A model generated the notes under the pieces. It was given only the letters and a program-made list of their open reading frames with translations, was not told the origin of the DNA and searched no databases. Below, one piece after another: positions 8,282-27,604 of a DNA stretch of 64,000 nucleotides (position 1 is the first letter of the stretch; every line of letters starts with the position of its first letter). The DNA is from Hyphomicrobium sp. (GTDB lineage Bacteria; Pseudomonadota; Alphaproteobacteria; Rhizobiales; Hyphomicrobiaceae): assembly GCA_030148425.1 (NCBI GenBank), contig JASBTM010000015.1, forward strand, positions 1-64,000, given 5' to 3'. The translations under genes and the position numbers were made by a program.

Positions 8282-8566
8282 ATACTGTCAGCCGGCATGT
8301 TCGCCGTGCGCGGCCGCATCCAGCGCGAGGGCGAAGTCGTGCATCTCGTCGCCCAGCGCCTGACTGATCTCTCGGCGGACCTCGCCAGTGTCGGCGATCG
8401 CGACGCCGCATTCCCGCTGCCGCATGGACGCGGTGACGAATTCCACCATGGCTCGCCGACCCCCGATCCGCGCGGTCTGGCACCGAAGGGGCTGCGCACA
8501 CGCGACATCTACGTCCGCGATCTGCACATCGACTCGATCAAGGTGAAGACGCGGGATTTTCGATGA
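8261..8566 (+). pseudogene. dnaE2: 3' remnant of error-prone polymerase dnaE2
   Basis: The last roughly 100 codons of an ImuC/DnaE2-type polymerase: NRRIILSAG, GRIQREGEVVHLV, DEFHHGSPTPDPRGL and the terminal DLHIDSIKVKTRDFR are typical of its C-terminal OB-fold end in alphaproteobacteria. A stop codon (8258-8260) sits directly before the recognisable part, and the rest of the about 1,000-codon gene is missing. It cannot be functional. It marks an old insertion or deletion scar between defence cassettes. Confidence 0.8.
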
Positions 8567-8641
8567 TTTTTAACGATCGGCCTTGAAAGCGGCAAGCGAC
8601 CCCCTTAGGTTTCTCGTTAGTCAGATCTAATGAGAAGAGCT

Positions 8642-9100: not shown

Positions 9101-9112
9101 GGGACTGCAAAA

Positions 9113-9772
9113 GTGACAGCGTCCGATCTCAGAAGCAAAATTGCCGAAAACGGTTACTCCTTCATTCCACGGCATCGCTTGGGCATCGGTACTGTCGAAG
9201 TCGCCAGCGATTTTGGCGATCCGTTGACGCCCTGGGAAGGAGGCCTTGTTCAAACCCTGGTGCCTCGCGAGGACGCTGCTCCAAATACCTATAGCGGGAA
9301 CTTCGGCTTGGGCAGCTTTCCGTTCCATACCGATCTTGCACACTGGCGCCGGCCCCCGCGCTATCTGTTGCTGCGATGCCAAGTGGGATATGACGACGTC
9401 CCCACGCTGCTGTTTGACGGTCGCGCGCTCATCGATGCCGTTTCCCGCGACACTCTCACACGGGCAATCTTCAAACCGCGGCGTCCACGCGACGGCACCC
9501 TTGCGCTGCTTCACCTTTTCGAATCTGCGGATGGCGCCGACCTATTACGGTGGGATGAAATATTCCTTCGGCCAGCAAGCAGAATTGGCGACGCGGCCGA
9601 CACGCAGATCCGCGATTGGCTCGCTAAGAGCGTCCCATTGTCGATCGCGCTCGCCCATCCTGGCGATACTCTGATCATCGACAACTGGCGCATGTTGCAC
9701 GCTCGGTCTCCGATCCCACCCGGGCGCGAGGATCGTTCAATACAAAGGGTATATTTGGGGGCACTTAAATGA
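9113..9772 (+). CDS. TauD/TfdA-like Fe(II)/2-oxoglutarate oxygenase
   Basis: A 219-aa protein with the metal-binding facial triad of the TauD family: H72 and D74 in FPFHTDLAH, and H196 in NWRMLHARS, followed by Arg 208 or 212 in DRSIQRVYLG, which would bind the 2-oxoglutarate carboxylate. Members hydroxylate or demethylate small substrates; this one is shorter than taurine dioxygenase (about 280 aa). It starts with GTG 12 bp after the first gene of the cassette. Its stop overlaps the start of the HEPN gene (ATGA), so the two are translationally coupled. An oxygenase coupled to a HEPN protein inside a defence island is unusual. The substrate is unknown. Confidence 0.75.
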   Translation: MTASDLRSKIAENGYSFIPRHRLGIGTVEVASDFGDPLTPWEGGLVQTLVPREDAAPNTYSGNFGLGSFPFHTDLAHWRRPPRYLLLRCQVGYDDVPTLLFDGRALIDAVSRDTLTRAIFKPRRPRDGTLALLHLFESADGADLLRWDEIFLRPASRIGDAADTQIRDWLAKSVPLSIALAHPGDTLIIDNWRMLHARSPIPPGREDRSIQRVYLGALK

Positions 9773-10722
9773 AGAAGACTATCGAGCCGGGCGCAACACC
9801 GGCAACATATCATCCAGAAGCGCTATACGCGAAGGCCGAGCGCTACATTCAAAACATGGATGACTATGACAGCGATGAATGGGAATACGCGCTCTGGTCT
9901 AGCTTCTCCCTGGAATTCCTCGCTCGCGCAGCTTTGGCGAATGTCAGCCCAGCGCTGCTAGCTGAGGCCGATAAAAACGGATCAAATCTCCTGTTCGCGT
10001 TGGGGTTCGCTCCCTTCGAAGAGAGGTTCTCACCAAGATCCATTCCAATCAGTGAGGTGTTCAAGCGCCTTTCAGGCATCCTGCCGGAATTTACCAAGGA
10101 GCATGAGAGCTTCGGGGTCGTACATACCGGCAAGCGCAATGCCGAACTCCACTCCGGCGAACTGGCATTCGACGGCGTCAAGGGGTCGACTTGGCAGCCA
10201 CGTTTTTATCAGACTTGTGCGATCCTCCTGACATCAATGGGAGTGACGCTCCCAGAGTTCGTAGGTGAAGACGAAGCGGAGGTTGCAAAAAAGCTTATCG
10301 ACGCAGCCGACGACGAAAGCGCGAAGGCCGTAAAGGGCGATGTAGAGGCGCACAAAAAGGTCTGGAACGCCAAGCTCGATGACGACCGCTCGACGCTACA
10401 AACCCAGGCCGCAGTGTGGGCCACCCGTCAGAACGGCCACCGAGTCGACTGCCCATCGTGCGGCTCGGCGGCTCTTGTCCTGGGGGAGCCAGTTTCTGCT
10501 CCAACACAGAAGCTCGACGACGACGAAATCATCGAAACCCAAGAGTATCTTCCGACCCACTTCGAATGCGTCGCATGCGGTCTCAAGATCGCCGGTCTCT
10601 CAAGACTCGCTGTCGTGGGTCTCAGCGATCGCTACAAGAAAACCCAGACCTACGACGCGGCAGAATATTATGCGCCTGCCGACGATTGGTCCAACTATGA
10701 AGACGACAATAACGAACGCTGA
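9769..10722 (+). CDS. HEPN-like protein with C-terminal zinc ribbon
   Basis: A 317-aa protein. The N-terminal helical region carries R123-N-A-E-L-H128, which fits the R-x4-6-H active-site motif of HEPN ribonucleases, embedded in KRNAELHSGE after a helix-rich stretch (SFSLEFLARAALANVSP). The C-terminal part has two CxxC knuckles, at C228/C231 and C267/C270, forming a probable zinc ribbon, then an acidic tail. Its start overlaps the oxygenase stop by 4 bp. A plausible reading is an RNA-cleaving effector whose activity or target is linked to the oxygenase. That is inference; the HEPN call rests on the motif alone. Confidence 0.6.
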   Translation: MKKTIEPGATPATYHPEALYAKAERYIQNMDDYDSDEWEYALWSSFSLEFLARAALANVSPALLAEADKNGSNLLFALGFAPFEERFSPRSIPISEVFKRLSGILPEFTKEHESFGVVHTGKRNAELHSGELAFDGVKGSTWQPRFYQTCAILLTSMGVTLPEFVGEDEAEVAKKLIDAADDESAKAVKGDVEAHKKVWNAKLDDDRSTLQTQAAVWATRQNGHRVDCPSCGSAALVLGEPVSAPTQKLDDDEIIETQEYLPTHFECVACGLKIAGLSRLAVVGLSDRYKKTQTYDAAEYYAPADDWSNYEDDNNER

Positions 10723-10940
10723 TCGACAGCATCGCAAACACGTCCACGCGCGGCCATCGGCCGGGAAGCGATCGCAGCCGTCACCCGGTTCCTGTTCCTA
10801 ACGAAACGAGGCTTTGACCTGCACCTGCCGCCAGGTCTTCGCCTGTAAACTGCCTCCGCACGTCCGCGACTTCGTCGGTTACACCTTTGATCCCGAAATC
10901 CTCGACCTGTCTCGTCCCGATCCCGACTACGCGCTGTTCG

Positions 10941-11822
10941 TCAACTCTCCCAAAATTCCTTGAGCGCTGCCGTGAAGTCATCGAAGCTAGCCGTCGACCA
11001 GCAGACCGAGGAACCATCCCTTACGAGCCAATGGAGTTGGCTCGCGGTCGTCAACTTCGTCCGATCCGCGTTCACGACCCAATTGAAGCACTCGACGAAC
11101 ATATCCTGATAGCTGCCCACGAATTTGTCGTTCGGCACATTCGAAAGCATCCCCTCGATGAAGTATGAGGGCGCGATCTTGTCGGCGAGCAACCCCTTGC
11201 CGATCATCGTGTTGCGCATGTTCTTGAAGATCCGGACCACACGCTTGAAGTTCTGGTTCGTGGCCTGATGCTTTGCGGTGCAGTTGTCCGAGTGTTGCTT
11301 CGGAAAATTCTCGATCCGTGATCCGTTCACGTAAAACGCTACCCCGGAATGGTAGCCGTGAACGCCGGATTGATAGGAATAGTAACGCCGGAATTGCTGG
11401 CAGATGAGTATGTCCGCGTTGCGGCGACCATTATTTCCCGGAACATGCAGCGCCTTTCCGCCCGCAACGACACCGTTGTACAGTTGATTGATGTACCTCT
11501 CGGCATCGCCTTTGAACTCGTTATAACCGTATGCGGCATTTGCTGAAAAGACGCCCTTGAAGGCATCCTGTTCGGCTTGGCTCATCGCGGAAATATCGTA
11601 GTAGAACGCGCCATTGTGGCAGAGGACGACGTCCACGTCGCTGTCCGCCCACACGTTCGTATCGTTGCCGTAAGAGCCCTGCAGGTGAACTTCTATGTCC
11701 TTCACCGGATAGAAGGCCGACCCGTCGAGAAGATTCCCCCTAATTGAATTATAGGTGTCCGTGAACTGGCCCGTCTTGCCTTGCTGAGACCACGTCTCGA
11801 GTTGCGCTTCCGCGATCGCCAT
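10941..11822 (-). CDS. CBASS CD-NTase (cGAS/DncV-like nucleotidyltransferase)
   Basis: The second gene of a CBASS operon. It makes a cyclic oligonucleotide alarm signal on phage infection. The 293-aa protein has the nucleotidyltransferase core: G49-S50 and the metal-binding D62-V-D64 in SYGNDTNVWADSDVDVV, with a third acidic residue in RNADILICQQF. The ATG at 11822 has GGGGGGAATT before it. It begins 12 bp after the phospholipase gene and is certainly co-transcribed with it. No Cap2/Cap3, HORMA or TRIP13 genes are nearby, so this is a type I (two-gene) CBASS. I cannot assign the CD-NTase clade or the product nucleotide by eye. Confidence 0.88.
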   Translation of the reverse strand: MAIAEAQLETWSQQGKTGQFTDTYNSIRGNLLDGSAFYPVKDIEVHLQGSYGNDTNVWADSDVDVVLCHNGAFYYDISAMSQAEQDAFKGVFSANAAYGYNEFKGDAERYINQLYNGVVAGGKALHVPGNNGRRNADILICQQFRRYYSYQSGVHGYHSGVAFYVNGSRIENFPKQHSDNCTAKHQATNQNFKRVVRIFKNMRNTMIGKGLLADKIAPSYFIEGMLSNVPNDKFVGSYQDMFVECFNWVVNADRTKLTTASQLHWLVRDGSSVCWSTASFDDFTAALKEFWES

Positions 11823-11834
11823 AATTCCCCCCGT

Positions 11835-12776
11835 TTAAGCCAAATACGACTTCAGTTCCTCCTCCGCCTCGCGCGCGCAATCGCGCCCGCGCTGCCACAG
11901 CAAGCCAAGCTTTTCCAAATCGACTTCCAACATGTCCGTCGCCATCTCTGGCTGGGTATATCGGGCGTGAACCCGAACCGTCGCAACATCTCGAAACATC
12001 ACGCGCCGCAACTGATCCATCGACTGGGCGCTGATCTCCATCGTCTTTTGAAGGAAGACCATCGTCGGCAGCTTGCTTGCCCATTTTCGAACGCTCCAGG
12101 TCGGAAGCTTCGGTGACGGATATTCGCCAACGCCGATGCTCACCACGCGAACATCGCTCCTCGCGATCCCCAACGATTCAATCGCGTCAACGATTGCGTA
12201 GAGCGTAGGATTGTTCGCGACAAAACCGCCGTCCCGGACCTCGATCCTCTCACCTGCGGAGGTAGTTACAAATTTCTTCTCGAAGAATGGATACGCCGAG
12301 CACGACCCGATCACCGCGTCGGCGATCGTACAACCAAAGCCGGGCTCAAACGTCGCCTTGCCACGAAAAGCCTGACGCCGGTTCGTCTTGAAGATGATGG
12401 GACGCTCCTCCTTCCATCTCGTGCCAACAATGCCGATGTCCGTCTTGAAGGCGTCGAAACGCAGCTCCCGGAAAACATCTGCTGCGAGCGCATCGAGTGC
12501 CGCGGTCTTTTGGCTCGGGCGCCAAGCCGACATGACGGTCACCACATGCTTGCGGTAGAGCGCCTCAATTTCGTCCACCGATTTCCCAAGGCCTAGTAGC
12601 GCGGCGATGATGGAGCCAGTCGAAGTCCCGTAGATCAGGTCGAATTTCTCGCACAATCTACAACCCGCGAGCGCTTCAATCTCCTTCAGCGCGCCCAGTG
12701 TGTAGAAGCCCTTTGCGCCTCCGCCATCTAAGCTGAGCACCCGGAAAGTTTCTTTCTCGGTTGAAACGTCGCCCAC
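11835..12776 (-). CDS. capV: CBASS patatin-like phospholipase effector
   Basis: A 313-aa patatin-fold phospholipase that degrades membrane lipids when activated by the cyclic nucleotide made by the next gene, killing the infected cell. Motifs: oxyanion hole DGGGAKG near residue 18, nucleophile elbow GTSTG near 51, and the catalytic-dyad Asp in VRDGGFVANNP. It probably starts with GTG at 12776 and leads the operon, with the CD-NTase 12 bp behind. It is divergent from the ICE gene at 13054; about 270 bp between them holds both promoters and several hairpins. Confidence 0.88.
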   Translation of the reverse strand: MGDVSTEKETFRVLSLDGGGAKGFYTLGALKEIEALAGCRLCEKFDLIYGTSTGSIIAALLGLGKSVDEIEALYRKHVVTVMSAWRPSQKTAALDALAADVFRELRFDAFKTDIGIVGTRWKEERPIIFKTNRRQAFRGKATFEPGFGCTIADAVIGSCSAYPFFEKKFVTTSAGERIEVRDGGFVANNPTLYAIVDAIESLGIARSDVRVVSIGVGEYPSPKLPTWSVRKWASKLPTMVFLQKTMEISAQSMDQLRRVMFRDVATVRVHARYTQPEMATDMLEVDLEKLGLLWQRGRDCAREAEEELKSYLA

Positions 12777-12997
12777 CTGTTTTCCTTTGCGATCGCACTA
12801 ACTCTTCCAATACACGATTCTTCACTATCCGACTTGCTCGACATGAAACGTGCCCAGAGTAGGCATCTCTACTCCGGACTAGACCTTGAGGGGAAAGCCT
12901 TCCCCTGCGCCCGAGCCCGCTGGTCTCGACCGACCCCTTCTGCGGGGCGGCTGCCCCGCAACGCCCTGCTGAGAGTGAGAGAGTGGACTGATTTCCG

Positions 12998-13039
12998 TGA
13001 CGGGTTGAGGACTGGAGAAGAGGTCTCCGGCGCCCGTCA
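12998..13039 (+). ncRNA. Structured leader, family A copy 1
   Basis: Directly upstream of the DUF932 gene. An outer stem TGACGGG/CCCGTCA encloses an inner stem CTGGAG/CTCCGG; the Shine-Dalgarno GGAG follows the outer stem immediately. The architecture and the GACGGGTT start recur upstream of three further genes in this element (14.4, 18.1 and 18.7 kb). Confidence 0.5.
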
Positions 13040-13053
13040 TGGAGATTGTTCCC

Positions 13054-14250
13054 ATGTCCCAAGATTCAGTCCTCGACGCCCGCCGCGACACAAACGGCGG
13101 TTACAAGGTCGATGTCAGCCGGGGGGAGTGGATCGGCCGCGTCTCGTCGGAATGGTTCTCGCGTCCGGCCGACGAGCGCTATCTCTCCCTGTCGGAACTG
13201 GCCCACACGGTTCGCGACCGCACCGAACGAAGCCGGACGCGGGTGGTGGAAAGCGCGCTCATCCACGTCGAGGCGAACCGCAACGATTCGGAGCGGCTGG
13301 CGCTGATCCTGCCAGGCACCGATGCGTCAATCGCGCCGACGCACTGGTCCTTCGGCCAGCTCGCCAGCCTGGTCGGCGCACCAGCCGCCTATTTGCGACA
13401 GCTCCCGGCCGCGCTCGCCGCCATCAACCTGCAATACGGCCTGACCTCCAGTCGGGCCGAGCAGATCAAGACGCTGGAAACCGATACTGGCCGCGTCGAA
13501 CTGCGCGCCGTCACCGGCCCGGATTACGGCCGGATCTTCGACCACGAACTGGTCGAGGCGGTGCAGCGTATCGCGGGCAATGGCACGGGCGACACCCGCT
13601 GGAAGGTGCCGGGCGTGCTCGATTGGTCGACCGGCATCTACAATCCGCGGGTCGACATCACCAAGGATACGACCACGCTCTATGCCTCCGACCGCGACGT
13701 CTTCCTGTTCCTGGTCGACGACCTGAATCCGATCGAAGCTGGCCGCCTGCCTGACGGCTCGCCGGATCTCTATTTCCGCGGATTCTATTGTTGGAATTCC
13801 GAGGTTGGCGCCAAGACGCTCGGCATGGCGAGCTTCTATCTCCGGGCGGTCTGCCAGAATCGCAATTTGTGGGGCGTGGAGGATTTCGAGGAAATCACCA
13901 TCCGCCACTCCAAATATGCCGCCAACCGCTTCGCGCACGAGGCGGCCCCGGCGCTGCTGAACTTCGCGAATTCCTCACCCCTGCCGTTCGTCAACGGCAT
14001 CAGGGCCGCCCGCGAGCGGATCGTCGCCAGGACCGACGAAGACCGCACCGACTTCCTGCGTCGGCGCGGCTTCTCCAAGGCCGAGACTGGCAAGATCATC
14101 GACAGAGTGCTGGCCGAGGAAGGCCGCCCTCCGGAGTCCATCTTCGATTTCGTGCAGGGCATCACCGCCGTCGCGCGCGACAAGCCCCATCAGGACGCCC
14201 GCCTCGACATGGAGGGCAAGGCGAAGAAGCTGCTCGATCGAGCCGCCTGA
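13054..14250 (+). CDS. DUF932 family protein
   Basis: A 398-aa member of the DUF932 (phage/plasmid-like) family, common on rhizobial ICEs and plasmids; its biochemical role is unknown. Recognisable blocks include LRAVTGPDYGRIFDHELVE, the aromatic motif RGFYCWNSEVGAKTLG, CQNRNLWG, and a C-terminal helical part with FLRRRGFSKAETGKII. I placed the start at the ATG at 13054, which has GGAG at a suitable distance; an in-frame ATG at 13039 would put that Shine-Dalgarno inside the gene. It is the first gene of the rightward ICE backbone and has a structured leader. Confidence 0.8.
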   Translation: MSQDSVLDARRDTNGGYKVDVSRGEWIGRVSSEWFSRPADERYLSLSELAHTVRDRTERSRTRVVESALIHVEANRNDSERLALILPGTDASIAPTHWSFGQLASLVGAPAAYLRQLPAALAAINLQYGLTSSRAEQIKTLETDTGRVELRAVTGPDYGRIFDHELVEAVQRIAGNGTGDTRWKVPGVLDWSTGIYNPRVDITKDTTTLYASDRDVFLFLVDDLNPIEAGRLPDGSPDLYFRGFYCWNSEVGAKTLGMASFYLRAVCQNRNLWGVEDFEEITIRHSKYAANRFAHEAAPALLNFANSSPLPFVNGIRAARERIVARTDEDRTDFLRRRGFSKAETGKIIDRVLAEEGRPPESIFDFVQGITAVARDKPHQDARLDMEGKAKKLLDRAA

Positions 14251-14366
14251 TTTCCGCGAAGCCGGGGATGCGGTTTTCCGTATCTCCGGCTTTGCGCTTC
14301 CGTGCCTTTCTGGTTCGCCGGTCCGTTGCGCTGCCCCCTTTAGAGGAAGAGGGCGGCGCTTCGCTT

Positions 14367-14413
14367 CGTGACGGGTTGGAGGTTGAGAGAGAGTCTCTCG
14401 GCCGCCCGTCGCG
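14367..14413 (+). ncRNA. Structured leader, family A copy 2
   Basis: Outer stem CGTGACGGG with CCCGTCGCG (9 bp, one wobble) around an inner stem GAGAGA/TCTCTC (8 bp with wobbles). Compared with copy 1, the inner stem has a different sequence but keeps pairing. GGAG follows at once and the ParB-like gene starts 13 bp later. Confidence 0.5.
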
Positions 14414-14425
14414 GAGTAAATCCCG

Positions 14426-16570
14426 ATGGCTACTGCCGTTCAGAAGATCATCCTGTCGTCCTCGCGCGACATCCCCTTCAACAAGCTGGTGCTCAGCCAG
14501 TCCAACGTCCGGCGCGTGAAGGCCGGCGTCTCGATCGAGGACCTTGCGGCCTCGATCGCTCGTCGCGGCCTGATCCAGAGTCTCAGCGTCTTTCCCGTCG
14601 TTGACGCCGAGGGCGTGGAGACCGGCATGTTCGAGGTGCCCGCCGGCGGTCGCCGCTTCCGGGCGCTCGAACTGCTGGTGAAGCAGAAGCGTCTCGCCAA
14701 GATCGCTCCAGTGCCCTGCGTGGTCCGTGATCGCGATGGCGCCATCCTCCCCGAAGAGGTGTCGCTGGCCGAGAATATCGAGCGCGCGCCGCTCCATCCG
14801 CTCGATCAGTTCCGCGCCTTCCACGACATGCTGACCAAAGGCATGACCGAGGAGGAGATCGCTGCGGCTTTCTTCGTCCCCGTCAACGTGGTCAAGCAGC
14901 GGCTGCGCCTCGCAGCCGTCTCGCCCGTCCTCCACGAGGTCTATGCCGACGACGGCATGACGCTGGAGCAGCTCATGGCCTTCACCGTCTCCGAAGACCA
15001 CGAGCGTCAGACCCAGGTCTGGGACGCGATCAAGGACGCCTGGTCGAAGGAGCCCTATCAGATCCGGCGCATGCTGACCGAGACCACGGTGCGCGCCTCC
15101 GACAAGCGTGCCGTCTTCCTCGGCCTCGAAGCCTATGAGGCGGCTGGCGGCATCGTCATGCGCGACCTGTTCCAGGCCGACGATGGCGGCTGGCTGCAGG
15201 ACGTCGGGCTTCTCGATCGCCTCGTCGCCGAGAAGCTGAAGGCCGAGGCTGAGGTGATCGCCGCCGAGGGTTGGAAGTGGATCGAGGTCGCGGTCAGTTT
15301 CCCCTACGACGCCGTGCGCGGTCTGCAGGAAATCTCCGGCACGCCGATCGATCTATCGGCGGAGGAACAGGCGACCATCGAGGCGCTCACCGCCGAGCAG
15401 GCCAGGCTCGAAGCGGAATATCAGGACGCCGACGAACTGCCCGATGAGGTCGACGAGCGCATGGGCGAGATCGAGACGGCTCTGGCCGCGTTCGACGATC
15501 GCCCCGAGCACTTCGATCCGGCCGACATCGCCATCGCCGGCGTCTTTGTCAGCATCGACGCCGACGGATCGCTTTCGGTCGATCGCGGCTTCGTCCGGCC
15601 CGAGGATGTGCCTCAGGTCCGGACCGATGGTGAGGAAGGATCGGAGACCGATACCGAATCCGCCGGCACCGCGAGCCCCTCGGTGCAACGCGCTGTCATC
15701 ACTATCGGCGGCCGGCCTGTCGAACCGGAGGAGGACGATGATGACGACAGCATCAAACCGTTGCCCGAACGCCTCGTCGTCGAGCTGACCGCCTACCGCA
15801 CCCTCGCGCTGCGCAACGCGGTGGCTGAAAACCCGCACATCGCCATGACGGCGCTTCTCCACAAACTCGTCTCGGACAACTTCATGACCCGCATGTACAC
15901 GGGCGCTATGGAGGCCGGGGTGAAGCACATCTTCTTCCCCGTTCAGGACGAGGCGCTGAAGGACAGCCCCTCCGCGCGGGCCGTGCAGGAGCGTCACGAC
16001 GCCTGGGCCACTGACATCCCGAAGGACGACGACGCCCTGTGGGATTGGCTCGCCGGTCTCGACGATGCCAGCCGTATGGCGCTGCTGGCACATTGCGTCA
16101 GCTATGGGGTCAACGCGCTCTATGAGCGGCCGAACCCGCACAGCGCTGGCGGCGTGTCGCAGCACACGCTCGACATGAGGCTCGCGCAGGCCGACCGGCT
16201 GACGCGGACGACCGGGCTCGACATAGTGGAGGCTGGTTGGCGCCCGACCTTCGGCAACTACCTCAACCGTGTCACCAAGCCGCGCATCCTCCAAGCCGTC
16301 CGCGAAGGCGCCGGCGAGCGAGCGGCCGAGCTTATCGGTCATCTGAAAAAGGGCGACATGGCCAAGGAGGCCGAGCGTCTCCTGGCCGATAGCGGTTGGC
16401 TGCCTGAGCCGCTTCGGCTTGCTGGCGTTGACGGCGATTCTGCAGCGGGCGCGGACGGCGGCAGCGAAGCCGAGGGGGCCGAGCTGCCCGACTTCCTCAG
16501 CGCCGACGACGACTCGGAATCGCCGGCCGATGGCGAGGATGACGACCGTCACCTCGTAGCCGCCGAATGA
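14426..16570 (+). CDS. ParB/Srx-domain protein, ICE-type (long form)
   Basis: A 714-aa protein whose N-terminal 200 residues form a ParB/sulfiredoxin-fold nuclease-like domain: NVRRVKAGVSIEDLAASI, the PAGGRRFRAL box, SLAENIERAPLHPLDQ, and a KorB-like HTH (TEEEIAAAFFVPVNVVKQRL). The remainder is specific to this mobile-element family and includes acidic low-complexity stretches (EPEEDDDDDS; the C-terminal acidic tail). It may act in ICE stabilisation or as a regulator; classical partition is less likely because a separate ParA block lies at 37.5 kb. A structured leader precedes it, and the frame is continuous to the stop at 16570. Confidence 0.8.
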   Translation: MATAVQKIILSSSRDIPFNKLVLSQSNVRRVKAGVSIEDLAASIARRGLIQSLSVFPVVDAEGVETGMFEVPAGGRRFRALELLVKQKRLAKIAPVPCVVRDRDGAILPEEVSLAENIERAPLHPLDQFRAFHDMLTKGMTEEEIAAAFFVPVNVVKQRLRLAAVSPVLHEVYADDGMTLEQLMAFTVSEDHERQTQVWDAIKDAWSKEPYQIRRMLTETTVRASDKRAVFLGLEAYEAAGGIVMRDLFQADDGGWLQDVGLLDRLVAEKLKAEAEVIAAEGWKWIEVAVSFPYDAVRGLQEISGTPIDLSAEEQATIEALTAEQARLEAEYQDADELPDEVDERMGEIETALAAFDDRPEHFDPADIAIAGVFVSIDADGSLSVDRGFVRPEDVPQVRTDGEEGSETDTESAGTASPSVQRAVITIGGRPVEPEEDDDDDSIKPLPERLVVELTAYRTLALRNAVAENPHIAMTALLHKLVSDNFMTRMYTGAMEAGVKHIFFPVQDEALKDSPSARAVQERHDAWATDIPKDDDALWDWLAGLDDASRMALLAHCVSYGVNALYERPNPHSAGGVSQHTLDMRLAQADRLTRTTGLDIVEAGWRPTFGNYLNRVTKPRILQAVREGAGERAAELIGHLKKGDMAKEAERLLADSGWLPEPLRLAGVDGDSAAGADGGSEAEGAELPDFLSADDDSESPADGEDDDRHLVAAE

Positions 16571-18596: not shown

Positions 18597-18615
18597 AATT
18601 TGCCCTCTCCCTCAG

Positions 18616-18644
18616 CGCCCGGCCTCACGGTCGGGCGTTTTTTT
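18616..18644 (+). terminator. Intrinsic terminator
   Basis: Stem CGCCCG/CGGGCG with a 10-nt loop, then T7. It ends the ardB-like transcript 20 bp after the stop codon, so the next leader must have its own promoter or read-through. Confidence 0.85.
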
Positions 18645-18674
18645 ATGTCGGCTGATCAGAGGAAGAGGACGGCC

Positions 18675-18736
18675 GGGACGGGTCGAGTCCGGGCGGTTGA
18701 GAGAGAGCGCCGTCCGGGTTTGTCCCTTCCGCTCTC
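18675..18736 (+). ncRNA. Structured leader, family A copy 4
   Basis: Outer stem GGGAC/GTCCC, inner stem CCGGGCGG/CCGTCCGG (8 bp with one wobble), loop TTGAGAGAGAGCG. Loop GAGAGCG (18703-18709) can pair with CGCTCTC (18730-18736) just before the ribosome site of the helicase gene. Topology is the same as copy 3 although the inner stem differs in sequence. Confidence 0.55.
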
Positions 18737-18997
18737 CCGAGGTTCCTCCATGAACATTCTGTCTCCCGTGGCCCTTCCGGCCGCGCCCGTCACCCCCGCG
18801 TCCTCGATCCTCAACGTAGCGCTACAGCTTCTCGATCATCTAGAGCGCGGCCAGCGTATCGACGCCGCGATCCTCCGTGCAGCGATGGAAGAAGCCTTCG
18901 GCGCATCCGACACCAGCGGCGCCTGGAACTGGAAGGCCGCCTATGAGGCGTGCGAGGTCGCGACAGTCCTCTTCCTGCGCAAATACGGAAAGGCGCT

Positions 18998-19026
18998 TTT
19001 CCGTAAGGCCGCGTCTCCGGCTTCAC
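18998..19026. repeat. Dispersed palindromic repeat within coding sequence, copy 1
   Basis: Core TTTCCGTAAGGCCG followed by TCCGGCTTCAC. The same pattern occurs inside the trbG signal region (52489-52517), and shorter relatives lie at 14251-14273 and 14275-14296. Both coding copies yield the peptide FRKA..PAS. Confidence 0.4.
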
Positions 19027-21290
19027 GGCTTTCCGCTCTCGCGAAGATCGCCGAACTCCTGCCGACGCATACGCGGCGCTCGGAAGAATCGCAGGCGCTC
19101 CAGCAGTTCTCGACGCCGGCGCCGCTCGGTCTCGCCGCCGTGGCGGCCGCCTCCATTGCTGCTGGCGACATCGTGCTGGAGCCGTCTGCTGGCACGGGTC
19201 TTCTCGCCATCCTGGCCGAGATATCAGGCGGAACGCTCCTCCTCAACGAGCTGGCCGAGACCCGAGCTGATCTGCTCGCTGCGCTGTTTCCGGCTGTCGC
19301 CGTCATGCGCTTCGACGCTGCCCAGATCAATGATCATCTCGCGACTGGATCCGTCCCCTCCGTCGTGCTGATGAATCCGCCATTCTCTGCCATGGCAAAC
19401 GTCACCGGCCGCGTGGCCGATACAGTCTATCGCCATGTCGCTTCCGCGCTGGCCCGGCTCTCCGATGGCGGGCGGCTGGTGGCGATCACTGGTGCCAACT
19501 TCAGCCCCGACCATCCGGCTTGGGCTGCGGCCTTCATCCGGCTTCAGGAGCGTGGCCGCGTCGTCTTCACAGCGGCTGTGGACGGCTCGGTCTATGCCAA
19601 GCACGGCACGACCATCGACACCCGGCTGACAGTCATCGACAAGCTGCCGGCCGACGATCAGGCTACGTTTCCCCCTTCGCCAGGCACCGCGCCCGACGTC
19701 GCCACGCTGCTCGGCTGGATCGAGGCGCAAGTTCCACCGCGCCAGACTGCGGCCCTCCCGCCAGCGGCGGCCCTGGCACCCGCCGCGACGCCCCGGACCG
19801 TTCGCGGATATCTCGCGCGCACCACTGCTGCACGTCCCGCCACGCCCGCGTCCATCGAGCCCGAAGGCGTCGAACTCGCCTATGAAACCGTGGACTGGAC
19901 GCCCGCCGAAGACGGCCGGATCACCGATGCAATTTATGAAGAATACCGATTGCAGGCGATCCTTATTCCCGGGGCGCAGGCCCATCCGACCAAGCTGGTG
20001 CAATCCGTGGCGATGGCCTCGGTCGCGCCGCCGAAGCCCAGCTATCGGCCCCGGCTGCCCGCCAACATCGTCCCAGATGGTCTTCTTTCCGATGCTCAGC
20101 TCGAAACCGTCATCTACGCCGGCGAGGCGCATTCCGACTTCCTCGCGGGATCATGGACGCTCGATGAGGCCTTCGACGTCGTCTCGGCCGCGCCCGACGA
20201 TGCGCCGAACGCCGTGCGCTTCCGCCGGGGCTTCATGCTTGGCGACGGCACCGGCGCTGGCAAGGGTCGCCAGTCGGCTGGCATCATCCTCGACAACTGG
20301 ATGCAGGGCCGCCACAAGGCGGTGTGGATCTCCAAATCCGACAAGCTGCTGGAGGATGCCCAGCGCGACTGGTCCGCCCTCGGCATGGAGCGGCTGCTGG
20401 TCACGCCGCTGTCGCGCTTCCCGCAGGGCAAGGACATCACGCTCTCGGAAGCCGTCCTATTTACCACCTATGCCACGCTACGGTCCGACGATCGCGGCGA
20501 GAAGCTTTCCCGCGTCAAGCAGATCGTCGAATGGTTGGGCTCCGACTTCGATGGAGTGATCATTTTCGACGAGAGCCACGCCATGCAGAACGCCGCTGGT
20601 GGAAAGGGCGAACGCGGCGACGTCGCCGCCTCGCAGCAGGGCCGTGCGGGCCTCCGGCTCCAGCACGCCCTGCCGAACGCGCGTGTCGTCTATGTCTCAG
20701 CGACCGGCGCGACCACCGTCCACAATCTCGCCTACGCCCAGCGCCTCGGTCTCTGGGGCGGCGAGGACTTCCCGTTTTCGACCCGCGCCGAATTCGTCGA
20801 GGCGATCGAGGACGGCGGCGTGGCGGCGATGGAGGTGCTGGCCCGCGACCTGCGCTCGCTCGGGCTCTACACGGCCCGGTCGCTCTCCTACGACGGCGTC
20901 GAATACGAACTGGTCGAGCACCAGCTCACCCCCGAGCAGACCGGCATCTACGACGCCTATGCCGGCGCCTTCGCTGTCATCCATAACAATCTCGACGCGG
21001 CGATGCAGGCCGCCAACATCACCGGCGACGGCGGCACGCTGAACCGCCAGGCCAAGTCCGCGGCGCGCTCAGCCTTCGAATCCGCCAAGCAGCGGTTCTT
21101 CGGCCATCTGCTGACCTCGATGAAGACGCCAACCCTGATCCGCTCGATCGAGCAGGACCTGATCGACGGCCATGCCGCCGTGATCCAGATCGTGTCGACC
21201 GGCGAAGCCCTGATGGAGCGCCGCCTGGCGGAAATCCCCACCGAGGAATGGAACGACGTCCGGGTGGACATCACTCCGCGCGAATACGTC

Positions 21291-21310
21291 TTATCCGGAG
21301 TTCCGGATAA
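21291..21310. repeat. 20-bp palindrome at left junction of the RIT insertion
   Basis: TTATCCGGA and TCCGGATAA separated by GT. It lies between the interrupted helicase gene and the outer tip of the left inverted repeat, and has no counterpart at the right junction. Confidence 0.7.
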
Positions 21311-21311: not shown

Positions 21312-21472
21312 ACATAATATGCCGCGTCGGCGTTATGCTGAGTTCGGGGTTTCAAGGTATTGTTCTTCTGATTCATTTTCGGGTTTCCGCTTTGGATAAT
21401 CATGATGCCTCTGCTCTCAACCGCAGAAGGACATCCCCTCATGAACTCCCCCTCGAACTCTCCGCTCGGCGG
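21312..21472. repeat. Left terminal inverted repeat of RIT element
   Basis: 161 bp, matching the reverse complement of 27444-27604 except at 21314 and near 21352. It contains an inert copy of the first codons of the large recombinase gene (MNSPSNSPLGG) reading towards the cargo gene. Confidence 0.92.
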
Positions 21473-21491
21473 TCATGCCAACCTTCTTACG

Positions 21492-21536
21492 CCAGTCTCT
21501 TCCGCGCATTATGCTGGGCGGGACGGAAGAGACTGG
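21492..21536 (+). promoter_or_regulatory. 13-bp perfect hairpin before cargo gene
   Basis: CCAGTCTCTTCCG and CGGAAGAGACTGG are separated by 19 nt, just upstream of the GTG start at 21550. It may be an operator, an attenuating RNA hairpin, or a recombinase site internal to the inverted repeat. Confidence 0.55.
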
Positions 21537-21549
21537 GTGGAAATCACGA

Positions 21550-23991
21550 GTGACCGACAAGAGCGATATTGAGGCGAACCTGGCGCGGGTTCGAGCGCGC
21601 CTGGCCGATCTGGATGCCGAGCGGCGTGAGCTTCAGCGCGAGATGGAGGCACTTGAGGTTCGTCTCGTTGCAGAGCCCGTGCCAACTGTGAAACAGCCCT
21701 CCTTCGAGAACGCCCCCGTCACGAATGCCTCGCCGTCGCACGAAAAGGTTGATCTGTTCCGCCGCCTGTTCACCGGTCGGCCTGACGTATTCCCGGTGCG
21801 ATGGGAAAACAGGAAGACCGGTCGCTCAGGATATTCGCCTGCTTGTGCCAACGAATGGGTGAAGGGCATATGCGGCAAGCCGAAGGTCAAATGTGGCGAA
21901 TGCCCCCATCAGAAGTTCATCCCGCTGGACGAAAGCGCCATTGAAAAACACCTGCGCGGTGATGATGGCCGAAGCGGAGATTTTGTCGCCGGCGTCTATC
22001 CGCTGCTATCGGGTGATACGTGCTGGTTCCTGGCGGCGGATTTTGACAAGGCATCCTGGGCGGAAGACGCCAATGCGCTGCTCGAAACCTGTCGGGCAAA
22101 GGGAGTCCCTGCAGCGCTGGAACGATCGAGGTCTGGGAACGGCGGTCATATCTGGATCTTCTTCTCCGAACCGGTAGCCGCCCGTCTGGCACGCCAGCTT
22201 GGGTCGGTTCTGATCACGGAAACGATGGAACGGCGGCCGGAAATCGGCTTTGCTTCCTATGACCGGCTGTTTCCAAACCAGGATATCATGCCGCTTGGCG
22301 GCTTCGGAAACCTGATCGCACTGCCGCTCCAGAGCACTGCGCGCAAGGCTGGCAACAGCGTCTTTGTGGACGCGGGCATGCGGCCATATGACGATCAGTG
22401 GGCCTATTTGTCCTCTCTGCCGAGATTGTCGGCGGCAGCGGTGACCAAGCTCGTCGAAGCCGCCGAGCTTTCCGGGCGGGTGCTGGGCGTGCGCATGCCG
22501 GTGGATGACGAACAGGCAGACGAACCCTGGAAGATGTCTCCGTCACGTCGCAGCACGGCGCGCCGCCTCGATGTTCCCGTTCCACCGACCATCAAGGTGA
22601 CGCTCGCAGACCAGGTCTATATCGACCGTTCGGAGCTGCCTTCGGCCATGATTGCCCAACTGGTGCGGTTGGCCGCGTTCCAGAACCCTGAATTCTATCG
22701 CGCGCAGGCGATGCGACTGCCGACATTCGGCAAGCCGCGAATTGTGTCCTGTGCCGAACTGCATCCCCGACACGTCGCCCTGCCGCGCGGCAGCTTCGAC
22801 GAAGCGATCGGATTCCTGTCCGATCACGGTGCGACAGCCGATCTGGACGATTTGCGCGAAGACGGAACCCGCTTGCCGGCGACGGTCCGCTTCCGTGGCG
22901 AACTTCGCCAGCCGCAATCGCGAGCGTTTGACGCATTGGCCGAACACGATACCGGCGTGCTTGCCGCCACGACCGCATTCGGCAAGACGGTCGTGGCCTC
23001 GGCGCTGATCGCACATCGTGGCCGCGGTACGCTGGTTCTGGTTCACCGTCGCGAACTCCTTAGCCAATGGGTTGAGCGCCTTCGGTCCTTTCTGCAGATC
23101 GACCCGAAGCAGATCGGCACCATTGGCGCCGGAAAGCGCAAACCCACCGGTGTGATCGACGTGGCGCTGATCCAGAGCCTGGTTCGCAAGGGCGAAGTTG
23201 ACGATATCGTTGCCGATTACGGCCATCTTGTCGTTGATGAGTGCCATCACCTGTCCGCTGCAAGCTTTGAGCTTGTCGCCCGCAGATCGAAGGCGCGCTA
23301 TGTCACGGGATTGTCGGCAACGGTCGCCCGAAAAGACGGGCATCACCCGATCATCTTCATGCAATGCGGTCCGGTGCGCCATCAAGTGAGTGCCAAATCA
23401 CAGGCCGCAGAAAGCGGCATTCACCATCGGGCGCGGGAACGTCACACGAGATTTAGATTGCCGGAGGCCCTCGCCATGGCCGAACGCCCGTCCATGCCCG
23501 CGATCTATGCCGCTTTGGCGGAGGACGAAGCCCGAAACGATCTGATCTTCAATGACGTGCTGAAATCGCTTGAGGCCAAACGCTCACCGATCGTACTGAC
23601 TGAGCGGAAGGATCACCTTGAGTATCTCAAGCAGCGGTTCTCCCGATTTGCGAAGAACATTGTCGTACTCCGTGGCGGCATGTCCGCAAAGGACCGGAAG
23701 GCCGCGCATGCGGCGCTGAATGTCGATGACGATGAGGAACGGCTGATCCTCGCGACAGGGCGCTATATCGGCGAGGGCTTTGATGACGCCCGGCTCGATG
23801 CCCTGTTCCTGACCATGCCGATCGCCTGGAAAGGCACGTTGGCGCAATATGTCGGCAGGTTGCATCGGCGGCACGACGAAAAGAAAGACGTGCTGGTGGT
23901 TGACTATGTCGACAGTTCGGTCCCGGTCCTTGCCAAGATGGCCGCCAAACGAAGAACCGGTTATCGGGCGCTCGGCTATGTGATGGAATAG
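21550..23991 (+). CDS. TOTE-type archaeo-eukaryotic primase fused to SF2 helicase
   Basis: An 813-aa protein. A coiled-coil start (about residues 5-40) leads to a Cys cluster (CANEWVKGIC, then KCGECPHQKF), then a primase-polymerase catalytic domain with the hhhDhD motif WFLAADFDKASW near residue 164 and SGNGGHIWIFF. This matches the AEP domain named after TOTE conflict systems. The C-terminal half is an SF2 helicase: Walker A TTAFGKT near 474-480, VDECHH near 563, TGLSATVARKDG, and VGRLHRRH. I prefer the GTG at 21550 because a long hairpin would fall inside the gene if the ATG at 21475 were used. It ends 39 bp from the convergent recombinase genes. It may help replicate or repair the element during transposition, or serve in defence. 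Confidence 0.8.
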   Translation: MTDKSDIEANLARVRARLADLDAERRELQREMEALEVRLVAEPVPTVKQPSFENAPVTNASPSHEKVDLFRRLFTGRPDVFPVRWENRKTGRSGYSPACANEWVKGICGKPKVKCGECPHQKFIPLDESAIEKHLRGDDGRSGDFVAGVYPLLSGDTCWFLAADFDKASWAEDANALLETCRAKGVPAALERSRSGNGGHIWIFFSEPVAARLARQLGSVLITETMERRPEIGFASYDRLFPNQDIMPLGGFGNLIALPLQSTARKAGNSVFVDAGMRPYDDQWAYLSSLPRLSAAAVTKLVEAAELSGRVLGVRMPVDDEQADEPWKMSPSRRSTARRLDVPVPPTIKVTLADQVYIDRSELPSAMIAQLVRLAAFQNPEFYRAQAMRLPTFGKPRIVSCAELHPRHVALPRGSFDEAIGFLSDHGATADLDDLREDGTRLPATVRFRGELRQPQSRAFDALAEHDTGVLAATTAFGKTVVASALIAHRGRGTLVLVHRRELLSQWVERLRSFLQIDPKQIGTIGAGKRKPTGVIDVALIQSLVRKGEVDDIVADYGHLVVDECHHLSAASFELVARRSKARYVTGLSATVARKDGHHPIIFMQCGPVRHQVSAKSQAAESGIHHRARERHTRFRLPEALAMAERPSMPAIYAALAEDEARNDLIFNDVLKSLEAKRSPIVLTERKDHLEYLKQRFSRFAKNIVVLRGGMSAKDRKAAHAALNVDDDEERLILATGRYIGEGFDDARLDALFLTMPIAWKGTLAQYVGRLHRRHDEKKDVLVVDYVDSSVPVLAKMAAKRRTGYRALGYVME

Positions 23992-24013
23992 CGCCCCGCC
24001 GAAAGCGGGACGC
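23991..24013. terminator. Hairpin between convergent genes
   Basis: GCGCCCCGC and GCGGGACGC around a 5-nt loop, with one mismatch and no T-run. It probably separates transcription of the cargo gene from the recombinase operon. Confidence 0.4.
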
Positions 24014-24030
24014 CAATTCTGCCCGATCAG

Positions 24031-25035
24031 TCAGGATCTCTGTGTGGCGACGGCCAATATCTGCATCAGCTTGTCCGAGGGTTCCCGGAACTTGCCGGGT
24101 TTGATCAGCGGAGCATGATGCGCATCCAGAAGCGCGAGCTTCTCGGTCGGATTCGCGCGCAGATATATCTCCGTCGTCTGGATGCTGGCATGACCGAGCC
24201 AGAGCGCGACCTTGCGGATATCGCCCGTGGCCTGAAGCGTATGCATGGCGCAGCTGTGCCGCAACACATGCGGGGTGACGCGCTTTGCGGCGATCGACGG
24301 GGCCGAGCGTTCTGCTGTCGCCACATGCTGCCTGAGCCTGTAGGCGAACCCGTCCCGCGTCATCTGACGGCCATCACGGTTCAGGAACAGTTCAGGCCCC
24401 ACATTGCTTAGGCGGACGGCCAGCCAAGCGCGAATGGTAGACTGGGTCTCTTTCCAGAGAGGCAGGATGCGCTCGCGTCGCCCCTTGCCCAGAATCCGCA
24501 CGCTGGAAAACGACCCCTCGGGAAAGTCATTCATCCGCACCGCGAGCAACTCGGAGGCCCTCAACCCTGCTGCGTAGGCCAGATGCAGCATGGCCCGGTC
24601 CCGCAATCCACCTGGCGTGTGGCGGTTCGGTGCCGCAAGCAAGGCTCGGACTTCTTCCTTGGTGAGATAGTCGATCAGCTTGGCTTCTGTCCGCTTGATC
24701 GGCATGGCCCGGATCATCATCGCCTGCTCAAGGCATACCGCGTGCCGGTGCTCGACGAAGCGGAAGAACGATTTGATCGCCGCCAGTCGCGCGTTGCGAG
24801 ACCGGACTGAATTGGCACGCCCTTCTTCGATGTGTTCGAGGAACGCCCTGACCATCTGAACGTCGAGGTCCTCGATGGCAAGTTCGGAAGGGGTTCGCTT
24901 GAGCCGCCCGGCGGCGAAACGCAATAGGAGGGTGAATGCATGGGCATAGGCCGCGATGGTATGTCGGCTTGCTCCGCATTCGCCCGGGAGGTGGGTTTGC
25001 AGGAAGGCTGAAAGGTCGGGAGCGAGCGGGGTCAT
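24031..25035 (-). CDS. RIT recombinase, third gene (tyrosine recombinase)
   Basis: A 334-aa site-specific tyrosine recombinase, last of the trio. An N-terminal SAM-like core-binding domain is followed by the catalytic domain with Arg in YAAGLRASELL, Lys in LGKGRRERILP, HVLRHSCAM (H-x-x-R), the GHASIQTTEIYL box with the second His and the nucleophile Tyr. All catalytic residues are present. Its start overlaps the end of the middle recombinase by 4 bp (ATGA). In RIT elements the three enzymes are thought to act together, because their order and overlaps are conserved. Confidence 0.88.
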   Translation of the reverse strand: MTPLAPDLSAFLQTHLPGECGASRHTIAAYAHAFTLLLRFAAGRLKRTPSELAIEDLDVQMVRAFLEHIEEGRANSVRSRNARLAAIKSFFRFVEHRHAVCLEQAMMIRAMPIKRTEAKLIDYLTKEEVRALLAAPNRHTPGGLRDRAMLHLAYAAGLRASELLAVRMNDFPEGSFSSVRILGKGRRERILPLWKETQSTIRAWLAVRLSNVGPELFLNRDGRQMTRDGFAYRLRQHVATAERSAPSIAAKRVTPHVLRHSCAMHTLQATGDIRKVALWLGHASIQTTEIYLRANPTEKLALLDAHHAPLIKPGKFREPSDKLMQILAVATQRS

Positions 25036-25970
25036 GCCACACCTCCGATCCAGGTCTCTTCGGCAGTCGACGCGATTATCTTCAGCAGGACCGGCGTGGC
25101 CTCAAGATACCAGTAGGTATTGGCGATATCGACATGGCCGAGATGGCCGAGATAGGTGCTCAGAGCCTTCATGTGCCGCAAGACCGCCTGTGGATCGGTC
25201 CCGCAAGCTTCGAGAGACCGCACCGCGAATGTATGGCGCAGATCGTGCACACGGGGGCCAGGACCTGTCGGGTTGCGATAGCCGAGCTTGCGCACGATCT
25301 GAACAAAGACCACGTAAACCCTGGTCGCCGTCGGGGCACGGCCATGGCCCAGAACGAAGAGGTCATCACTCGCATTGCGCATGCTGTTGCGGGCATCGAG
25401 ATACCGGTCCAGAGCGGCGCGGGTTGAAGGATGTATCGGCACGAGGCGGCTTTTGCCGAACTTGCCTTTGCGGATCATGAGACCGTCCTCTGTCAGGTCA
25501 TCGCGCTGCAGGGACAAGGCTTCCGAAATCCGCAAGCCTGTCGAAGCAAGCAGCCCGAACAGGTTGTGGTATGTCAGCGGGCTGATCGGCGTCAGACCGG
25601 GCACCAGAAGCGCTTCCTGCATGATCCGACTGATCTGGTCCCGCCTCAGAATATGCGGGGCGGGTCGCCGTCGTCGTGAACGGCCCAGCAGGCCCATCGC
25701 CGGAATCTCGTGCTGCGCATCTTCCGCATGCAGGAACACCGCGAGCGCGCGAGCGCGATCAAACCGGGCCTGCGCGGCATCCGGCGTCGATGCGCCACCG
25801 GCCCATTCCAGTATCAGCGCGGCCGTCACGTGCGTGATGGATCGTTCTGCGGTAAAATCCGCAAAAGCGTGCAGGGATGTCTCCTGCGCGGCAAACTTCA
25901 TTCCGAGGGCGCGGTTGAGACGGACGAAGCGGTCGACATGGTGATGCATCATGATGCACACCCCGGCCAT
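25032..25970 (-). CDS. RIT recombinase, second gene (tyrosine recombinase)
   Basis: A 312-aa tyrosine recombinase. Catalytic residues: Arg in LASTGLRISEALSL, Lys in RKGKFGKSRLVPI, VHDLRHTFAVRSL, and GHLGHVDIANTYWYL with the nucleophile Tyr. The N-terminal DNA-binding domain is shorter than in its neighbours. It overlaps the first gene by 22 bp and the third by 4 bp, so all three are translated from one message. Confidence 0.88.
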   Translation of the reverse strand: MAGVCIMMHHHVDRFVRLNRALGMKFAAQETSLHAFADFTAERSITHVTAALILEWAGGASTPDAAQARFDRARALAVFLHAEDAQHEIPAMGLLGRSRRRRPAPHILRRDQISRIMQEALLVPGLTPISPLTYHNLFGLLASTGLRISEALSLQRDDLTEDGLMIRKGKFGKSRLVPIHPSTRAALDRYLDARNSMRNASDDLFVLGHGRAPTATRVYVVFVQIVRKLGYRNPTGPGPRVHDLRHTFAVRSLEACGTDPQAVLRHMKALSTYLGHLGHVDIANTYWYLEATPVLLKIIASTAEETWIGGVA

Positions 25971-27475
25971 GGCTGAGCCACGTCTGCCAGCATCTCCACA
26001 TCTACCTTCGCATAGATCGATGTCGTATCGCGCGAGGTGTGGCGCAGCGCGACACCGATCTGGTCGAGATCCGCACCGCCGCGCAACCAGGCCGACGCCA
26101 GTGAATGGCGAAATACATGTGAGCCGGTCGGCAAGCCAGCGAAGCCGCCCCGGTTAAGTACACGGGAAACGATCCCGGCGATCTCGGCGGCGGATCGCAG
26201 CGGGGTGAAAGGGGCCTGGGTTCGGAGAAAAACCCTGTCCGTGGCGACCACCGGACGCGCATTCTCGATATAGGCCAGCAGCGCATCGCCTGCATCCTGC
26301 GGCAGGGGCATCAAGACACCCCGTCTGTCCTTGCCATGCAATCGCAACCGGCTCGCGCGCCAGTCGATGTCGGACAGGCGCAGCTGCCAGATATCTCCCG
26401 CGCGCAGGGCCAGCCGGGCGAGGAGGAGAAGAATAGCGCGGTCCCGTATCTCGACCGGCGTATCGGTGCGACAGGAGGCTATGATCTCTTCGATCTTTGC
26501 GGTGGGTATGGTGCGCGGGACGGTCGAAAGCCTGCGACGAACAGCGGGTGGCACCGCATGGAGGAGCGACGGGGCGCATTCACCTTGAATGATGGTGAAG
26601 CGCAGGAAGGAGCGCAGCACGGTGACCGTCATGCGCACGGATGATCGGGAGCGCTCTTCGCCCTGATCCAGAACGATCGACCGGATTGCCGCCGCGTCGT
26701 AATCCTTCTGGGCTGCCACAAGGCGATCCAGCCAGCGGCCCGCTTCGTTCACATAGCGCCGCACGGTCTCGGACGTTACCCCACGTTCGCGGCGTAGCCA
26801 TTCCGAGAACTCGGTCAGGCGCGGATCGCAGGCGGTGACACAGTCAGGCGCTGCGGGCGGGATCAAACTCTGCTCCCGCAGGAACCGGACAAAAGCACGA
26901 GCGCCACGACGACGATCCCTGGTGCCGGAACCTTCGACCCGTTTGCCGTGCTTGGTCTTGATCCCGCAGCGACAATCATGATGTGCGAATTGGTCGCCAA
27001 TGGCATCGTCGATCCCGTGGGCCGGAACACGCATCTGCAGCGCCCATTCCGCGAAATGGCGGGCCTGGCTCAGTCGCATCGAATAAGTCACTTCGCTGTA
27101 ACGGGCGGCGCTGAGCTTCCCGGCATAGGCCTGCAGATATTGCCCGAGCCGTGCGACATCATCGGCAATCATGACCACCCCGGAATCTTCCAGATATCGA
27201 AGAAACCGGCGCGTGTCGGCCGCATACACGGGGCACTTCAACTGGGTAGGGCTGTAGCGGTCGCAGCGGCAGCGATGGCGCAAGAACCGATCAACGGCCG
27301 ATGCGTCGAGGTCTCTGATCGGGATCTTCCGCGCGCGTGCCCACTTCAGGAAATGCCGGGCGGCGCTCAGCGCGCCCGCCGAAAGTCGGGGATTGTCCGC
27401 GCAATAGGTGCGGACGAGAGTGCGGTCGTCGGCTTCGAGATGGCCGCCGAGCGGAGAGTTCGAGGGGGAGTTCAT
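25949..27475 (-). CDS. RIT recombinase, first gene (large tyrosine recombinase)
   Basis: A 508-aa tyrosine recombinase with an extended N-terminal half that contains two Cys-rich knots (HRCRCDRYSPTQLKCPVY and HHDCRCGIKTKHGK), absent from the other two and possibly metal-binding. The catalytic domain holds Arg in LLARLALRAGDIWQL, Lys in HGKDRRGVLMPLP, HVFRHSLASAWL, and HTSRDTTSIYAKV. The ATG at 27475 lies inside the right inverted repeat, so the repeat supplies its promoter and first codons. It is the promoter-proximal gene of the trio. Confidence 0.88.
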   Translation of the reverse strand: MNSPSNSPLGGHLEADDRTLVRTYCADNPRLSAGALSAARHFLKWARARKIPIRDLDASAVDRFLRHRCRCDRYSPTQLKCPVYAADTRRFLRYLEDSGVVMIADDVARLGQYLQAYAGKLSAARYSEVTYSMRLSQARHFAEWALQMRVPAHGIDDAIGDQFAHHDCRCGIKTKHGKRVEGSGTRDRRRGARAFVRFLREQSLIPPAAPDCVTACDPRLTEFSEWLRRERGVTSETVRRYVNEAGRWLDRLVAAQKDYDAAAIRSIVLDQGEERSRSSVRMTVTVLRSFLRFTIIQGECAPSLLHAVPPAVRRRLSTVPRTIPTAKIEEIIASCRTDTPVEIRDRAILLLLARLALRAGDIWQLRLSDIDWRASRLRLHGKDRRGVLMPLPQDAGDALLAYIENARPVVATDRVFLRTQAPFTPLRSAAEIAGIVSRVLNRGGFAGLPTGSHVFRHSLASAWLRGGADLDQIGVALRHTSRDTTSIYAKVDVEMLADVAQPWPGCAS

Positions 27476-27604
27476 GAGGGGATGTCCTTCTGCGGTTGAG
27501 AGCAGAGGCATCATGATTATCCAAAGCGGAAACCCGAAAATGAATCAGAAGAACAACACCTTGAAACCCCGAACTCAGCATAACGCCGACGCGGCATATT
27601 ACGT
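27444..27604. repeat. Right terminal inverted repeat of RIT element
   Basis: 161 bp, the inverted partner of 21312-21472. On its plus strand it provides an ATG (27540) in frame with the resumed helicase gene; on its minus strand it holds the start of the large recombinase. Confidence 0.92.

Follow-up and report, generated by a model that had tools for sequence, protein, structure and literature searches.

Does a mobile element of the RIT (recombinase in trio) type carry anything besides its three tyrosine recombinases, and if so, what is the passenger for? The question is raised by positions 21,312 to 27,604 of the window, by which we mean the whole stretch of 64,000 nucleotides analysed here (Hyphomicrobium sp., assembly GCA_030148425.1, contig JASBTM010000015.1, positions 1 to 64,000 of the forward strand). 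There, three recombinase genes share a pair of long inverted repeats with a gene that fuses a primase of the TOTE (TPR, OB, TBP, Effector) kind to a helicase. We observe that all four genes, together with their ends, are found repeatedly as a unit that occupies one and the same codon of related genes, in both orientations. The reading that we prefer, at a probability of roughly 55%, is of a RIT element at a fixed codon of a strawberry-notch-type helicase gene, which carries the primase-helicase as stable cargo, likely for defence, and moves as a circle that can insert either way round.

Four genes between long inverted repeats

The element consists of the following features (AEP, archaeo-eukaryotic primase; ORF, open reading frame; SF2, superfamily 2).

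21291..21310, no strand: near-palindrome of 20 bp, TTATCCGGAGTTCCGGATAA, candidate spacer of the circle joint
21312..21472, plus: left terminal inverted repeat, containing a copy of the ritA start region
21402..21572, plus: predicted leader ORF, starting within the repeat, its first 24 residues those of RitA, overlapping the probable primase start
21475..23991, plus: primase-helicase, AEP-TOTE at residues 90-325, SF2 helicase at about 476-800, probable start GTG 21550
24031..25035, minus: RitC-like tyrosine recombinase, 334 aa, PF00589 116 bits, catalytic residues conserved
25032..25970, minus: RitB-like tyrosine recombinase, 312 aa, PF00589 62 bits
25949..27514, minus: RitA-like tyrosine recombinase, 521 aa, PF00589 82 bits, starting inside the right repeat
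27444..27604, minus: right terminal inverted repeat

The whole measures 6293 bp. Its two arms are identical at 159/161 positions, with mismatches at 21314 and 21359 (lengthened to 165 bp they have 3 mismatches), and a repeat of 161 bp is impossible by chance. The recombinase ORFs overlap by 4 bp (ritC and ritB) and 22 bp (ritB and ritA), and the primase-helicase reads towards them from the opposite end, so that the layout is just as a preliminary description of this DNA had given it. Each gene of the trio aligns with its own counterpart in Cupriavidus pHG1, and across 58-60 trios the R, K, HxxR and Y positions are 95-100% conserved in all three recombinases. The near-palindrome, in which 9/10 pairs match, directly adjoins the left repeat and is probably part of the element; 20-mers with at most one mismatched pair number only 9 in the whole window.

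The package recurs

The preliminary description had proposed that genomes be searched for the trio plus a TOTE primase within matching repeats, and such a search finds the package repeatedly. RitA at 60% identity or more is present in 17 plasmid records from 9 organisms (6 of the records are D. shibae), and in all 17 a convergent primase adjoins the trio, among them a Frigidibacter record (L208; L and G numbers denote loci and genomes of our survey) whose genes are broken into pieces. The end motif was surveyed in 16 genomes, 14 of them reached via primase loci, and is present in 15; the 9/9 convergent pairs of ends on one contig lie 6.10-6.34 kb apart, and none of these nine has a trio-only length. 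Ends of class A, the clade of the window element, were not found in viral contigs. Among 297 genomes of the order, the primase occurs in 8 and a RitB match in 12, RitB above 60% identity being confined to the window's genome and G055, both of which have the primase; among 318 genomes of the class the figures are 5 and 8, both including the window's genome.

The trios were also compared in a tree of 54. Six near-duplicates were dropped, loci with broken ritB or ritC (among them L012, L190 and L191) are left out, 15 rows on cut contigs do not enter the primase scoring, and the outer rows carry a long-branch warning. The window element falls in a clade of 15 rows (100/100), with a convergent primase in 15/15. 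The nearest other plasmid trios fetched are those of Methylocystis (L166), Sphingobium (L167), Paraburkholderia (L168) and Rhizobium (L171 and L172), of which L171 alone has a primase, convergent and within 95-bp repeats, at another target. In a separate clade of 11 rows, whose target is a DUF736 gene wherever it could be read, the primase stands upstream on the same strand in 6, is missing in 2 and is cut in 3, and the pHG1 RITs in the tree are without it. Homologous trios that consistently lack the primase, for the preliminary description a sign of chance nesting, are not what is seen among close relatives, which keep it; more distant RITs mostly do without.

Approached from the primase, the association is looser. 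A genome scan confirmed at least 545 places, and of the best 80 loci, which were examined, 17 have a convergent trio, whole or partial, nearby, 13 of them with both repeats recognised; in another 7 the primase is accompanied by a same-strand trio of a more distant kind. The other 56 are without a whole trio in the stretch examined, some being cut by contig ends, and L015, L019, L038 and L039 among them hold trio remnants. Primases outside the repeats would also have been a sign of chance nesting for the preliminary description. In many relatives the primase does occur without a whole trio, but part of these genes are flanked by element ends or neighbour a remnant of ritC. At L038 and L024 the long repeats resemble element repeats at first sight, yet they are wholly or mostly copies of DUF736 and target genes.

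That a primase gene simply fell by chance into one RIT copy is an idea with which the primase-free distant RITs would agree, but order, orientation and spacing are the same in the 17/17 plasmid records found via RitA and in the class-A rows, and we reject it on this recurrence as having practically no probability. The preliminary proposal of a RIT with a TOTE-type primase-helicase as cargo is instead borne out by the recurrence, fixed position and common ends of the unit and by its having moved horizontally as a whole.

Insertion at one codon, in either orientation

The element interrupts a gene for a strawberry-notch-type helicase, of which both parts remain in the window.

18600..21290, plus: N-terminal part of the target gene, PF13872 405 bits
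27598..29393, plus: C-terminal part of the target gene, PF13871 331 bits, reading YVLDYLAHSF from the junction onward

The ORF of the N-terminal part continues through the palindrome and into the repeat, with its stop at 21317. Joining the target across the site gives a 154-aa peptide with matches in 495 plasmid records; in 482 of them at least 80% of it is covered in one place, and in the 25/25 plasmid records listed it is one piece with full coverage. Intact targets are therefore common, and this ungapped match in the 25 records listed rules out that the palindrome was already present in the target.

We surveyed the junctions of 35 loci, and at 23 of them each half of the target gene holds one end of the element, at the same codon. 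In these the palindrome (TTATCC-GGATAA type, some with a mismatch) is at the N side in 23/23 and at the C side in 0/23, while the element itself points the same way as the target gene in 11 and the opposite way in 12. Where the N side alone is visible (L006, L190, L191) the palindrome is present, and where the C side alone is visible (L018, L020, L027) it is absent; L024, where a C half of the target flanks the element at either end, shows no palindrome, and the remaining 5 loci have no class-A junction in the target. DUF736 insertions likewise keep the palindrome to one side: it is present at 9/9 readable C-side junctions, once with 2 mismatches, and at 0/11 N-side ones, the side being assigned from matches or, partly, from flank resemblance. 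In that survey no side was readable at L043 left, L046 both and L079 right, and the right end of L047 is cut; L041, L042, L044, L056 and L175 fall outside the end pattern, L175 obeying the rule on separate reading.

The element appears to be mobile, because near-identical copies lie in unlike flanks and four organisms have it on two plasmids. Over 6293 bp the window element is 99.78% identical to its oppositely oriented copy in G055, a genome from another family of the order, and the flanks are 78-80% identical. Dinoroseobacter (pDSHI01 and pDSHI03 of D. shibae DFL 12), Pukyongiella, Sagittula and Gemmobacter each have the element on two plasmids, and in the same-strain pairs (L169/L170, L201/L202, L203/L204 and L206/L207) the two copies are opposite in orientation to the target in 4/4. 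Two identical RIT copies are listed for D. shibae DFL 12 in PMC3414803, and these are likely the two copies analysed here; the words helicase, primase, cargo and passenger do not occur in the main text of that paper.

These junctions are most simply accounted for by a circle whose joint, repeat-spacer-repeat, would form a single long palindrome containing two TAYGT cores, and which of these is used would depend on the target. RitA, RitB and RitC would join both repeats around the 20-bp palindrome into a single symmetric joint, which would then recombine with a TAYGT core in the target and leave the palindrome on one fixed side of it, whichever way round the element goes in. The insertion footprint thus predicts a symmetric circle joint.

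Two further observations concern copies of the element. In G622, L024 is a whole element between two C halves of the target, and L190 and L191 are truncated trios beside N halves, an arrangement that is likely a rearrangement between copies. A second left element end, 85% similar, lies in the window's own genome (L006; G000 contig C9, 19218-19387, cut by the contig end), in the same kind of gene and at the same codon; a second primase or RitB was not found in this assembly.

The primase-helicase

The protein matches AEP-TOTE (PF22548, 328 bits against a cut-off of 27), ResIII (73.5 bits), DEAD (39.6) and Helicase_C (23.6). In 99 primase rows (87 of them different) D189/D191, H225, G503-K504-T505 and D588-E-C-H-H592 are invariant, which we take to be the catalytic and Walker motifs. 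The closest solved structure to the primase part is PDB 7nqd (E 2e-10), a CRISPR-associated PrimPol. The PADLOC PrimPol model matches with 297 bits, whereas NCBIfam PrimPol_Msp gives 80.3 bits, under its equivalog cut-off of 200, and by this measure the protein is not PrimPol_Msp. The helicase part matches repair helicases of the XPB and RadD types, and in phage records it is the helicase part alone that is matched (15 listed of 1071 matches).

Translation probably starts at GTG 21550 (residue 26) rather than at ATG 21475, because the annotated D. shibae start coincides with this GTG, because L018, L020 and L013 carry stops at the positions of residues 8, 16 and 23, respectively, and because the leader ORF (21402-21572) overlaps it. 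The repeat opposite ritA contains a copy of the ritA start region, from which the primase may be expressed. Over 14 elements dN/dS has a median of 0.094 for the primase, 0.087 for RitC, 0.128 for RitB and 0.170 for RitA, by simple counting and partly saturated, since median dS is 0.7-1.2. In a quick tree of the 99 rows, without bootstrap, the class-A primases group together with trio-free primases, and one primase (L076) has a frameshift near residue 724.

Cargo or part of the transposition machinery

Given that the primase is constant in the clade and appears to share the ritA start region, it might be a working part of movement, with the trio exchanging one strand and the primase priming the copy strand of a copy-out intermediate; copy-out has been argued for the related strand-biased elements (PMC10214605). 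We regard this as unlikely. The sister trio L166 sits at the same target codon, within 98-bp repeats, and has no primase. A primase is absent from 4/5 of the sister trios fetched, which disfavours a primase required for all RIT movement. Moreover, intact primases remain beside decayed trios (ritC remnants at L015, L019, L162, L163 and L165), and in the DUF736 clade the slot by the left end holds other genes: a LysR-type helix-turn-helix (HTH) regulator-like gene with two chromate-transporter genes in L106 (5204-6861) and an alpha/beta hydrolase gene in L174 (2621-3505). The view that RIT elements carry only the trio therefore fails in a second RIT clade as well. Since sister trios lack the primase and other genes fill the slot in that clade, cargo is favoured over a transposition helper. 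Units of 2.70-2.77 kb with the primase alone between inverted repeats also exist (L032 7816-10582, L044 2575-5276, L046 7858-10609), and as these have no recombinase, a trio would have to act in trans for them to move.

RITs of the DUF736 clade also have a DUF736 gene of their own in two complete copies, inverted, within repeats of 628-752 bp that are 99-100% identical, as if replacing the broken DUF736 gene.

L106, 6942-7624 and 10873-11555: DUF736-copy repeats
L174, 3490-4241 and 7601-8352: DUF736-copy repeats
L175, 4549-5228 and 8626-9306: DUF736-copy repeats
L079, 10424-11051 and 14341-14968: DUF736-copy repeats

As for what the cargo does, the preliminary description had offered replicative copying of the element or defence, and the comparisons disfavour the first and favour the second. 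The recurrence of the package across alphaproteobacterial plasmids and genomes leads us to see the enzyme as a likely defence gene that travels as stable cargo, and, to judge from relatives in conflict systems and on Thermus ICETh2, it may act against foreign DNA. Loss of the ICETh2 primase-polymerase (Ppol) is reported to have left that element unaffected and raised DNA uptake by transformation (PMC7693054). A cargo kept for some other use, such as repair or replication restart of the host plasmid, would suit the repair-type helicase part, the purifying selection on the primase and its many copies on plasmids; we think it improbable, for the AEP part belongs to a family named for conflict systems and matches the PrimPol defence model, and the Thermus analogue is reported to be without a damage phenotype (PMC7693054).

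Several points weigh against stable defence cargo on a circle that inserts either way. Most rows of the 15-trio clade were reached via the primase, so the unbiased count is the one from plasmid records found via RitA. Truncated class-A trios without primase exist (L190 and L191, from one genome, which also has a rearranged third copy), and they are the exceptions among close trios. Within class A the recombinases are hardly more constant than the primase, a pattern that would suit a helper as well. No circle joint was found in the 16 genomes (0/16), and movement is read from sequence comparison, no event having been observed. Finally, the element is without the TPR, OB and TBP genes that a TOTE system has, and its defence role is predicted from homology, just as the role of the target gene is assigned from its family.

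The target gene and its surroundings

Homologues of the target gene are annotated as methyltransferase/helicase or strawberry notch protein, and it may be an anti-restriction gene with a DarB-like role. The window also contains conjugation genes (TraG coupling protein, TrbE/VirB4-type, TrbL and TrbI, 42530-54744, plus), and the target gene therefore lies within a conjugative element. We can imagine, tentatively and with no great expectation, a gene swap in plasmid conflict, in which RITs with palindromic joints break the anti-restriction (methylase/strawberry-notch helicase) gene of a conjugative plasmid and install a defence primase-helicase in its place; if this were true, a plasmid's shield gene would be the landing pad of a weapon. 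Elsewhere in the window, an ORF at 3627-5279 (plus) that combines a TetR-type HTH with an AAA_21 ATPase domain and matches an OLD-like TOPRIM weakly is possibly another defence gene. The Sphingobium plasmid target gene (L167) holds two different RITs at two sites (6739-10437 and 10786-14585).

Comparison with known systems

Among open PMC papers, with the main RIT papers of 2009 and 2013 outside this scope, no description of a RIT element with cargo or a primase came to light, and searches there for TOTE with archaeo-eukaryotic primase and for the D. shibae plasmids gave no paper. RITs have so far been described as bare trios, whereas here a lineage has a constant, conserved cargo enzyme and a fixed landing codon. 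This makes it possible to test how one reaction is divided among three recombinases, whether the passengers of RITs are useful genes, and which role TOTE-type primases have outside TOTE systems.

The window element resembles the RITs of Cupriavidus pHG1/CH34 in its three adjacent overlapping recombinase genes, their order ritA-ritB-ritC and conserved catalytic residues, and in its terminal inverted repeats with a palindrome at one end; its RitB and RitC are 36% and 41% identical to those of the pHG1 trios. It differs in length (6.3 kb against about 3.5 kb), in its repeats (161 bp against about 34 bp), in a RitA of 521 aa and in the primase-helicase gene inside. The published traits (PMC3414803) are a length of about 3.5 kb and gene overlaps of 4 to 8 bp. 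It thus belongs with RITs by trio types A/B/C, catalytic motif, repeats with palindrome and, as far as sequences tell, mobility, and departs from them in its 6293 bp and fourth gene; because RITs with other cargo exist, a trio-only length is a descriptive rather than a defining trait.

Strand-biased circularizing elements (SEs), GInts and Tn554 likewise use several cooperating tyrosine recombinases, a short core in donor and target, and target specificity (PMC10214605), but their fourth gene is of the srap/ginD/tnpC kind, whereas the window element has only the primase-helicase besides its trio; SEs are reported from Gammaproteobacteria. With the TOTE conflict systems the window primase has the AEP-TOTE domain in common, but their TPR, OB and TBP partners (PMC12458937) are absent from between the window repeats, and the partners here are recombinases. 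The AEP catalytic region is related to those of CRISPR-associated PrimPol and of the Thermus ICETh2 primase-polymerase. On ICETh2 (PMC7693054), Ppol is paired with a helicase on a mobile element, whereas here the helicase is fused to the primase and the carrier is a recombinase trio.

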